From the NCBI RefSeq assembly GCF_011250645.1, contig NZ_JAANNO010000002.1, positions 267,506 to 331,505 on the forward strand: a stretch of DNA of 64,000 bases. The letters are read 5' to 3'. Positions 21,947-37,164 of this stretch are shown in pieces. The position numbers and the translations under genes are program-made. The number at the start of each line of letters is the position of its first letter. Position 1 is the first letter of the stretch. This DNA comes from Motilibacter aurantiacus. Its GTDB lineage: Bacteria > Actinomycetota > Actinomycetes > Motilibacterales > Motilibacteraceae. A model generated the notes under the pieces. It saw only the letters and a program-made list of their open reading frames with translations. It did not search any database and was not told the DNA's origin.

Positions 21947-22567
21947 GTGAGCATCGTGACCCGCATCCACAGCGTTCCCGTCGAGGTCGCCGACCAGGAC
22001 GCGGCGATCCGCTTCTACCGCGACGTCCTCGGCTGGGAGGTGCGCACCGACGTCGAGCTGTGGCCCGGCGCCCGCTGGGTCGAGGTGGCACCGCCGGGCT
22101 CGCCCGTCCTCGTCGCACTGGTCGCCGAGGGCAGCGGGATCCCCGTCGGGGTGCGCTACCTGACCGACGACGCGTCGGCGGCGCACGCGGCGCTCACGGC
22201 CGCGGGCGTGGCGCCGCACGAGGAGGTCCTGATCACCGGCTTCGCCCCGCCGGTGTTCACCGCGAGCGACCCGGACGGCAATCCGGTGATCCTGCTCGAG
22301 GGCGGCGGTGACGGCCCGCCGGGCACGCCGTCCGGGGCCCGCCCGGAGGGTCAGCCGGCCGGCTTCGCCGGGACCGGCTCCACGCCCGCCCGCAGCAGGC
22401 CGAACGACATCGCGTCGACCAGCGCCTCCCAGGAGGCCTCGATGATGTTCGCGGCGATCCCGACGGTCGTCCAGGTCTCGCCCGCGCCGTTGGAGGTCTC
22501 GATGAGCACCCTCGTCATGGCGCCGGTGCCGGTCCCGGTGCCCGCGTCGACGATGCGGACCTTGTAG
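21947..22567 (+). CDS. VOC-family (glyoxalase/bleomycin-resistance fold) protein, C-terminus antisense to cimA
   Basis: Residues 1-125 form one VOC domain: IHSVPVEVADQDAAIRFYRDVLGWEV, a central YLTDDASAAHAALTAAG, and TASDPDGNPVILLEGG with the metal-site Glu near the end. The VOC fold should end there, but the frame has no stop until 22567, adding about 75 low-complexity residues that run antisense to the last 217 bases of cimA. Either a real convergent overlap or a recent loss of the natural stop. GTG start at 21947 gives the conserved N-terminus. Substrate unknown. Confidence 0.75.
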   Translation: MSIVTRIHSVPVEVADQDAAIRFYRDVLGWEVRTDVELWPGARWVEVAPPGSPVLVALVAEGSGIPVGVRYLTDDASAAHAALTAAGVAPHEEVLITGFAPPVFTASDPDGNPVILLEGGGDGPPGTPSGARPEGQPAGFAGTGSTPARSRPNDIASTSASQEASMMFAAIPTVVQVSPAPLEVSMSTLVMAPVPVPVPASTMRTL

Positions 22568-23970
22568 TCCACGAGCGAGAACTGCTCGATGACCGGGTAG
22601 GCGTTGACGAGCGCCAGCCGCAGCGCCGCGTCGAGCGCGTTGACCGGGCCGTTCCCTTCCCCGGTGGCCACGTGCCGCTCCCCGGCGGCGTGGACCTTGA
22701 CGGTCGCCTCGGCGAGCGCCTGCTCCCCGCCACGCCCGTCCATGAGCGCGCGCCACGACTCGACCTCGAACCAGCAGCGGCGGGCGCCCTCGACCACCTC
22801 GAGCAGCAGCAGCTCGAAGCTCGCGTCGGCCACCTCGAAGGTGTAGCCGCGGGCCTCCATCTCCTTGACCCGCTCGGTGAGCCGGGTCTGCGCGTCGCGG
22901 TCGCTGGACAGGTCGTAGCCGAGCTCGCGCCCCTTGAGCTCGACGCTGGCCCGTCCGGCCATCTCGGACACGAGGAGACGCATGTCGTTGCCGACCAGCG
23001 AGGGGTCGACGTGCTGGTAGAGGTCGGGGTCCACCTTGATCGCGCTCGCGTGGAGGCCGGCCTTGTGCGCGAACGCGGAGGCGCCGACGTACGGCTGCCG
23101 GGCGTACGGAGGGACGTTGGTGATCTCACTGACCGCATGCGAGATGCGCGTGGACTCCTGCAACCCGTTGCCCGCAAGGAGTTTCATCCGACGCTTGAGC
23201 TCGAGATTGGCGACGATCGTGACGAGGTCGGCGTTGCCCGTGCGCTCGCCGTAGCCGTTGAGCGTCCCCTGGACGTGCGTCGCGCCGGCGTCGACCGCCG
23301 CGAGCGTGTTGGCCACCGCGCAGCCGGCGTCGTTGTGGCAGTGGATCCCGAGCTTGGCCGAGCTGGCGGCGAGCACCTCGCCGACCGCGTCCGCCACCTC
23401 GTTCGGGAGCATGCCGCCGTTGGTGTCGCACAGCGCGATGACCTCCGCACCGGACTCGGCCGCGACTCGCACGAACTCGACTGCGTACTTCGGGTCGTAC
23501 CGGTAGCCGTCGAAGAAGTGCTCGGCGTCGACGAAGACGCGTGTCCCCTCGGCGCGCAGGTGGTCGATGGTGTCGCGCAGCATCGCCAGCCCCTCGTCCG
23601 GCGTCGTGCGCAGCGCCTTCTCCACGTGCAGGGCGTGCGACTTCGCGACGAGGGTCACCACCGGCGTGCGCGCCTCGCGCAGCGCCGCGACGAGCGGGTC
23701 GTCGGGGGCCTTCGCCCCCGCCCGCCGGGTCGAGCCGAACGCTGCCAGCGCCGCATTGCGCAACGACAGCTCGGTCTGCGCGCGCCGGAAGAACTCGGTG
23801 TCCTTCGGGCTCGCGCCCGGCCAGCCGCCCTCGATGAAGCCGACGCCCAGGTCGTCCAGGTGGCGCGCGATCGCGAGCTTGTCGGCGACGGTCAGCGCGA
23901 GGCCCTCCTGCTGCGCGCCGTCGCGCAGGGTCGTGTCGTAGACGTGGAAGCCGTCGCTCGTCGGCGCCAT
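22351..23970 (-). CDS. cimA: (R)-citramalate synthase
   Basis: CimA condenses pyruvate and acetyl-CoA to citramalate, the threonine-independent entry to isoleucine. The 539-residue product belongs to the DRE-TIM family: VYDTTLRDGAQQEG, DLGVGFIEGGWPGASPKD (the citramalate/homocitrate-type signature rather than LeuA), LCDTNGGMLPNEVADAV, GIHCHNDAGCAVANTLAAV, GTLNGYGERTGNADL and HKAGLHASAI. The C-terminal LeuA-type regulatory dimer domain is present (LVDYKVRIVDAGTGTGAMTR region), the site of isoleucine feedback in known enzymes. ATG 23968-23970 follows a GGAAGGA site. An upstream leader peptide and attenuator supply the control. Confidence 0.92.
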   Translation of the reverse strand: MAPTSDGFHVYDTTLRDGAQQEGLALTVADKLAIARHLDDLGVGFIEGGWPGASPKDTEFFRRAQTELSLRNAALAAFGSTRRAGAKAPDDPLVAALREARTPVVTLVAKSHALHVEKALRTTPDEGLAMLRDTIDHLRAEGTRVFVDAEHFFDGYRYDPKYAVEFVRVAAESGAEVIALCDTNGGMLPNEVADAVGEVLAASSAKLGIHCHNDAGCAVANTLAAVDAGATHVQGTLNGYGERTGNADLVTIVANLELKRRMKLLAGNGLQESTRISHAVSEITNVPPYARQPYVGASAFAHKAGLHASAIKVDPDLYQHVDPSLVGNDMRLLVSEMAGRASVELKGRELGYDLSSDRDAQTRLTERVKEMEARGYTFEVADASFELLLLEVVEGARRCWFEVESWRALMDGRGGEQALAEATVKVHAAGERHVATGEGNGPVNALDAALRLALVNAYPVIEQFSLVDYKVRIVDAGTGTGTGAMTRVLIETSNGAGETWTTVGIAANIIEASWEALVDAMSFGLLRAGVEPVPAKPAG

Positions 23971-24033: not shown

Positions 24034-24100
24034 GGGAAAACGAAAAGACCCCCCGCGGATGCGAGAGGTCGGCGCGCTCGGCGAAAGATGCCGGGCGCGC
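24034..24100 (-). promoter_or_regulatory. cimA transcription attenuator
   Basis: On the minus-strand RNA, directly after the leader stop, an antiterminator-type hairpin (GCGCGC-C-CGGC pairing with GCCG-A-GCGCGC, 24072-24100) is followed by a 10-bp hairpin GACCUCUCGC/GCGGGGGGUC with loop AUCC (24047-24070; two G-U pairs) and a UUUUCGUUUU tract (24037-24046). This is the layout of a leader-peptide attenuator and nearly repeats the ilvB one. Confidence 0.75.
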
Positions 24101-24129
24101 TAGCCGATAATCGAGCGGCTGCGGAGCAT
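24100..24129 (-). CDS. cimA leader peptide MLRSRSIIG
   Basis: A nine-codon ORF (MLRSRSIIG, stop TAG) about 130 bases before cimA, ending in two adjacent isoleucine codons (ATT ATC) right where the antiterminator stem begins. Isoleucine is the end product of CimA, so stalling at these codons when Ile-tRNA is scarce would relieve termination. Position, codon content and RNA structure support it; expression is inferred. Confidence 0.75.
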   Translation of the reverse strand: MLRSRSIIG

Positions 24130-24202
24130 GGGGCCATCGTGCCACACCCCGGCCAGCGCCGTCCCCGGCTTGCCCGCACGGCCGCAAGCCCTCGACCCGG
24201 TC

Positions 24203-24253
24203 GGCAGGAGGCCCCCTTCCCCCTGATGGACGGGGAGAAGGGGGCCTCCTGCC
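24203..24253 (-). terminator. Terminator downstream of ilvE
   Basis: Strong hairpin: GGCAGGAGGCCCCCTT pairs with AAGGGGGCCTCCTGCC, extended by CCCC/GGGG around the loop. It lies 25 bases after the ilvE stop and separates ilvE from the cimA leader. Confidence 0.8.
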
Positions 24254-24278
24254 GGCACGTGGCGGGGCGGGGCGGCGG

Positions 24279-32098: not shown

Positions 32099-32133
32099 AG
32101 CCAAAGGCGCACCGGGGGCGGCGCGCGCGTCGG

Positions 32134-32209
32134 GCTCCCTGCGCCGGCATGACCCGGATCAGGTTCGGCGGGTGTGCTCTCAGCCCCTCGGAGAGGGGCA
32201 CCCCGGCCG
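32134..32209 (-). ncRNA. TPP riboswitch (THI element)
   Basis: Minus-strand sequence carries the conserved THI-box elements: GGGGUGCCCC, then the CUGAGA pyrimidine-binding core (in GGGGCUGAGAGCACACCC), then CCGAACCUGAUCCGGGUCAUGCCGGCG. It lies about 60 bases before thiM and is expected to repress thiM-thiE-thiD-tenA when TPP is high. Confidence 0.95.
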
Positions 32210-37068: not shown

Positions 37069-37136
37069 ACAAAAACCCCCCGGCCCTGGTGGGCGACGAG
37101 GGGTAGCGCGCTCGGCGGGAAATCAGCCGGCGCGCT
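37069..37136 (-). promoter_or_regulatory. ilvBNC transcription attenuator
   Basis: Minus-strand RNA after the leader: hairpin AGCGCGCCGGC/GCCG-A-GCGCGCU (37105-37136) with one bulged A, which overlaps the leader stop; then a terminator ACCCC...GCCC-ACCA-GGGC...GGGGU (37075-37105) followed by UUUUUGUUU. The two structures share the ACC/GCGCGCU junction, so they can exclude each other. Confidence 0.8.
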
Positions 37137-37164
37137 GTACGAGTACGAGAATTCGGGACTGCAC
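37123..37164 (-). CDS. ilvB leader peptide MQSRILVLVQRAG
   Basis: A 13-codon ORF (GTG start, TGA stop) with five consecutive branched-chain codons, Ile-Leu-Val-Leu-Val. It resembles the ilvBNC leader peptide described in Streptomyces. It ends inside the 5' arm of the antiterminator hairpin. It controls ilvBNC by ribosome stalling when any branched-chain aminoacyl-tRNA is low. Confidence 0.85.
   Translation of the reverse strand: MQSRILVLVQRAG

Follow-up and report, generated by a model that had tools for sequence, protein, structure and literature searches.

A conserved isoleucine-codon leader and intrinsic terminator upstream of cimA, a probable transcription attenuator in Motilibacter aurantiacus and other Actinomycetota

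We analysed a stretch of 64,000 nucleotides from Motilibacter aurantiacus (hereafter the window), the minus strand of which carries a set of genes comprising ilvB, leuB, ilvE and cimA. CimA is the first dedicated enzyme of one isoleucine-making pathway, and the closest named relative by this protein is Motilibacter deserti (94% identity). A search for a biosynthetic ilvA, which would offer a second route to 2-oxobutyrate beside cimA, returned a homologue of 275 bits, which is under the cut-off of 379. Elsewhere in the window, a TPP riboswitch (RF00059, 62.6 bits) is located at 32133-32208 on the minus strand. The features considered here are the following.

22351-23970, minus strand: cimA, citramalate synthase, the presumed regulated gene (TIGR00977 equivalog, 604 bits against a cut-off of 450)
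24037-24070, minus strand: intrinsic terminator, a 10-bp stem followed by UUUUCGUUUU (folding; the stem covaries in relatives)
24072-24100, minus strand: hairpin P1 (folding; covariation in relatives)
24100-24129, minus strand: leader ORF MLRSRSIIG, ten codons from ATG to TAG (sequence; comparable ORFs in relatives)
24106-24111, minus strand: putative sensor codons ATT ATC, Ile-Ile (sequence and codon counts)
24136-24141, minus strand: promoter-like -10 element CACGAT, within TGTGGCACGAT, 6 nt upstream of the leader ATG (sequence)
24202-24254, minus strand: long hairpin lacking a U-tract, in the ilvE-cimA intergenic region upstream of the leader (fold)
37123-37164, minus strand: related ilvB leader MQSRILVLVQRAG, with the same P1-terminator layout as at cimA (R1 model, 25.3 bits)

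A preliminary description of this DNA had proposed that the gene is cimA and that it is preceded by an ORF, MLRSRSIIG, with two adjacent isoleucine codons and by a 10-bp terminator with UUUUCGUUUU. All three proposals were borne out: the family search agrees on the gene, the ORF occupies 24129-24100 of the minus strand (ATG CTC CGC AGC CGC TCG ATT ATC GGC TAG), and folding places the terminator after it, at 24070-24037. The G of the leader stop codon TAG is the first base of the P1 5' arm, and the hairpin comprises 10 bp with one internal mismatch, pairing 24100-24090 with 24082-24072. One nucleotide further on (24072 to 24070) the terminator begins, with an uninterrupted stem formed by 24070-24061 and 24056-24047 and then UUUUCGUUUU at 24046-24037. 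The element lies about 130 nt upstream of cimA and has a fold z-score of -2.37, with 3 of 200 shuffles folding equally well. The short distance between CACGAT and the ATG suggests a leaderless or nearly leaderless transcript, and the motif [CT]ANNNT is found 4-11 nt upstream of an in-frame start in 67 of 71 relatives. The long hairpin at 24202-24254 probably ends the ilvE transcript, so that cimA would be driven by the leader's own promoter.

We built a covariance model, R1, from 51 elements, among them the Motilibacter element in the window. At this site R1 scored 71.3 bits (E = 7.3e-16 in the 4.6-Mb genome), and the next match in the genome reached 14.2 bits. Across 80 named cimA loci, a non-random sample picked by CimA similarity that also supplied 50 of the 51 training sequences, the element was found upstream of cimA in 78 of the 79 loci that include upstream sequence, representing more than 20 genera (Nocardioides, Kribbella, Kineosporia, Actinomadura, Microbispora, Knoellia, Cellulosimicrobium, Phycicoccus and others). 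The sole locus without an R1 match among these 79 was that of Nocardioides sp. Root240 (L020). Short Ile-Ile ORFs occupy the equivalent place in most of the 80 loci; conservation of these codons, set in advance as a point on which the preliminary description could fail, extended to their position, frame and codon identity.

In addition, we searched 396 genomes sampled independently from the phylum at E <= 0.001, and 62 of them contained an R1 match. In the same class as Motilibacter, 27 of the 29 sampled genomes with cimA carry the element, in all 27 cases at cimA, and the same-class genomes of this sample that lack cimA gave no R1 match. The upstream sequence of the two exceptions, G198 and G367, shows no leader and has a promoter-like element directly upstream of cimA itself. 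The distribution in other classes is patchy, with a plausible Ile-run leader upstream of cimA in about 6 of the 40 regions sampled, and the weakest matches of the phylum search, such as L149 and L151, look like chance. Some R1 matches come from a genus whose ilvB leader, MRTRILVLGKRVG, is identical to the published IlvL of S. lividans, so that these genomes are probably Streptomyces; their cimA leaders resemble VSSFVMIIGSRRAGPQ. The S. lividans attenuator list does not include cimA (PMC8079986). As a separate observation, four loci from other classes (L197, L198, L185 and L190) have Ile-run leaders upstream of cimA that end in IIIRPLP or IIIIGSLP before the stop codon. In two of them, L197 and L198, a long hairpin that lacks a U-tract is made up of the codons following the isoleucine run; this is a second architecture of Ile leader at cimA.

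Among the unpaired positions of the element, the isoleucine codons show the strongest conservation, and they are held in a fixed register to P1: ATY ATY NNN is followed by either TAG or a sense codon, and that by CGCG. Two leader shapes share this register: in one, exemplified by Motilibacter, the stop codon lies right at P1, and in the other translation would continue through the P1 5' arm (IIGWRAG followed by a stop), so that IIG-TAG in Motilibacter corresponds to IIG-TGG in the read-through shape. Codon usage in the leaders is also unusual. AUU makes up 74 of 168 leader isoleucine codons (44%) versus 13 of 1156 (1.1%) in cimA genes, and the 106 isoleucine codons of six genes in the window are all ATC, with zero ATT. 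At least one non-ATC isoleucine codon was present in 66 of 71 leaders, where 2.0 would be expected (P = 8e-60, a value that is indicative only, since the sequences are related). AUU and AUC are decoded by the same tRNA; for this reason, part of the bias could favour RNA unfolding instead of sensing.

The related leader upstream of ilvB, recovered by R1 in a separate scan of the window (element at 37158-37068), allowed a comparison within one genome. Here the preliminary description had contrasted isoleucine-only codons at cimA with mixed codons at ilvB, and the same-genome leader MQSRILVLVQRAG upholds that distinction. Leaders of ilvB in other genomes match R1 at up to 46.9 bits, and the ilvB leaders seen were those at 37164-37123 of the window and in L126-L148 and L199-L218. 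Within branched-chain runs, isoleucine accounts for 168 of 225 codons in cimA leaders, a fraction biased upward by the selection of these leaders for two adjacent isoleucine codons, versus 24 of 154 in ilvB leaders. The latter favour GUA (40/70 versus 12/927 in ilvB genes) and CUU (25/60 versus 33/710). In four genomes (L120, L121, L124 and L127) a leuB-like gene is preceded by an Ile-run leader of this family, for example VIIIE, RIIIV or IVIIR before the stop codon, and cimA follows on that strand some 2-4 kb further downstream. Outside the host class, R1 matches include leucine-codon leaders, NGLLLR before a leuA-like gene and HLLLIWPR before a leuS-like gene (L150 and L141, respectively); the labels leuB, leuS and leuA here are our reading of the protein sequences. 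Judged by these sequences, the putative sensing codons track the downstream gene: isoleucine for cimA and leuB-cimA, mixed codons for ilvB and leucine for leuA and leuS. This bears on the idea that the leader senses a general slowdown of translation or growth state, with the isoleucine codons acting merely as slow codons. Rare codons such as AUU, or GUA and CUU in the ilvB leaders, would slow any ribosome; however, if speed alone counted, rare codons of any other amino acid would be just as suitable, and amino-acid identity follows the gene across the family, which makes this reading very improbable.

Both helices of the element are supported by covariation. In a structure-fitted alignment with 91 distinct sequences for P1, changes on both sides were found in 9 of 10 P1 pairs, and in the same kind of alignment in 6 of 8 terminator pairs, far exceeding shuffles and slid controls; in an unfitted alignment, 6 of 10 P1 pairs still showed changes on both sides. 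In 68 of 70 sequences the spacing between P1 and the terminator is 0 or 1 nt. The strong conservation and covariation of the two helices and the near-invariant GCGC core carried by P1 might also be expected of a ligand-binding riboswitch or protein-binding RNA in which the ORF is incidental. Against this, the P1 and terminator loops vary in length and sequence among relatives, the most conserved unpaired positions are the isoleucine codons themselves, and no Rfam family, T-box or other, matched the element at its curated threshold; we regard a ligand- or protein-binding RNA as the least probable of the alternatives. Rfam matches at a lax threshold were all sub-threshold and fell mostly on the hairpin between ilvE and cimA.

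The preliminary description had also placed an antiterminator between the ORF and the terminator. The structure meant is presumably P1, which is real, but P1 and the terminator do not overlap and are compatible with each other. With a ribosome mask on the first isoleucine codon, the second or the stop codon, the terminator retained a probability near 1 in nearly all of 71 sequences, the exceptions being a few lower values and L052, whose terminator is incomplete in the extract. When masked folding was applied to a transcript still lacking the terminator 3' arm, no helix captured the 5' arm, and a covariation scan of all column pairs revealed no third helix, the isolated extra pairs failing to stack. 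Two further pairings, one joining the 3' strand of P1 to the 5' strand of the terminator and the other joining the P1 loop to the terminator's 3' strand, appeared plausible by eye in single sequences and were not conserved. In the same masked folding, P1 was largely formed with a ribosome on the first isoleucine codon and masked with a ribosome on the stop codon. The leader resembles trp/his-type attenuators in that its Ile-Ile codons specify the end product of a route that CimA begins, and differs from them in that a mutually exclusive antiterminator was sought and not found, for which reason we do not file it as a classical trp-type attenuator. Antitermination may take a kinetic or steric form.

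On this evidence, cimA is very probably under the control of an isoleucine-specific, ribosome-mediated transcription attenuator; translation of the leader, stalling, termination and the response to isoleucine are what we infer from its sequence. Transcription would probably start at or beside the leader ATG. With ample Ile-tRNA, a ribosome would clear AUU-AUC and reach the stop codon, which lies beside P1 in Motilibacter and, in some relatives, within the P1 loop; the terminator would then form and transcription would end before cimA. When Ile-tRNA is scarce, the ribosome would stall on the AUU/AUC pair, at a fixed distance upstream of P1, and RNA polymerase would read through into cimA. An alternative is that the leader acts on cimA translation, by reinitiation or by masking of the ribosome site, as might be imagined for the few distant lineages in which Ile-run leaders (the IIIRPLP and IIIIGSLP types) are associated with a hairpin and no U-tract. 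In Motilibacter and the main family, however, a U-run intrinsic terminator with a covarying stem separates the leader from the gene, and the leader-to-cimA distance differs several-fold among relatives, so that we consider translational control very improbable.

Within the attenuator reading, the least certain part is the switch step: because no competing base-pairing antiterminator was found, how a stalled ribosome prevents termination is something we infer. Our leading idea is that P1 would form when the ribosome stalls at isoleucine and be masked when it sits at the stop codon, and that P1, once formed flush against the terminator base, would hinder terminator closure. P1 is taken as the ribosome-sensitive part because its masking by ribosome position parallels the logic of ilvB1 in M. 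tuberculosis. The opposite sign is possible, with P1 aiding termination and the stalled ribosome blocking P1.

We read the cimA leader as a new cimA member of the known actinobacterial ilvB-type family of branched-chain leaders. It has a short in-frame ORF of branched-chain codons immediately upstream of a hairpin and a U-run intrinsic terminator between the ORF and the first gene, and a relation in sequence and structure is apparent in that R1 detects ilvB leaders. The ilvB (ilvBNC) elements of Streptomyces, Mycobacterium and Corynebacterium likewise combine a branched-chain-rich short ORF with a hairpin and an intrinsic terminator, and the peptide ends (RAG/RVG) are similar in the two groups. 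The cimA leaders differ in their target gene, in the narrowing of the codons to isoleucine and in that most stop right at P1 rather than inside it.

In the M. tuberculosis ilvB1 attenuator, replacement of the LVVI codons by alanine abolished induction, disruption of the terminator mitigated a vulnerability phenotype, and a stalled ribosome allows the antiterminator to form, while one at the stop codon masks it (PMC13236596). That system shares with the cimA leader its branched-chain codons, its terminator and the stop-codon masking logic; its codon and terminator dependence is experimental, and the mutually exclusive antiterminator and terminator reported for it contrast with the lack of an overlapping antiterminator in our analysis (PMC13236596). 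The Corynebacterium ilvB-II motif similarly comprises P1 and a P2/terminator with an in-frame uORF across P1, but is confined to ilvB, has mixed codons and was proposed to form an antiterminator between the P1 loop and the terminator stem (PMC10272879). Streptomyces leuS, trp and trpS leaders also encode end-product codons, mostly with a terminator, and concern other amino acids and genes (PMC1262725, PMC8079986). PMC1262725 cites work on the S. coelicolor ilvB leader in which replacement of candidate codons was without effect; by analogy, this result would count against codon sensing at the cimA leader. Published actinobacterial leader lists cover ilvB, leuA, leuS, trp, trpS, cys, alaS, thrS and metN, with no cimA (PMC1262725, PMC8079986), and a non-exhaustive search of the accessible literature found no description of cimA with a leader or attenuation, in agreement with the preliminary description, which knew of none.

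More broadly, and only tentatively, there may be a phylum-wide family of branched-chain leaders built on a shared P1-terminator chassis, whose specificity would be reset by swapping a few rare codons (isoleucine for cimA; isoleucine, leucine and valine for ilvB; leucine for leuA and leuS). Such leaders would switch without a base-pairing antiterminator, a ribosome-sensitive hairpin flush against the terminator deciding whether it closes.

In Actinomycetota, the cimA leader appears to be a strongly conserved and so far undescribed point of control for the citramalate route to isoleucine, and one that extends to Streptomyces-type genomes used in antibiotic production. In addition, the leaders of cimA, ilvB, leuB-cimA, leuA and leuS form a natural series with a constant chassis and changing sensing codons, which makes the switch step of actinobacterial attenuators directly testable and bears on the conflicting reports over whether the codons of the ilvB leader matter.
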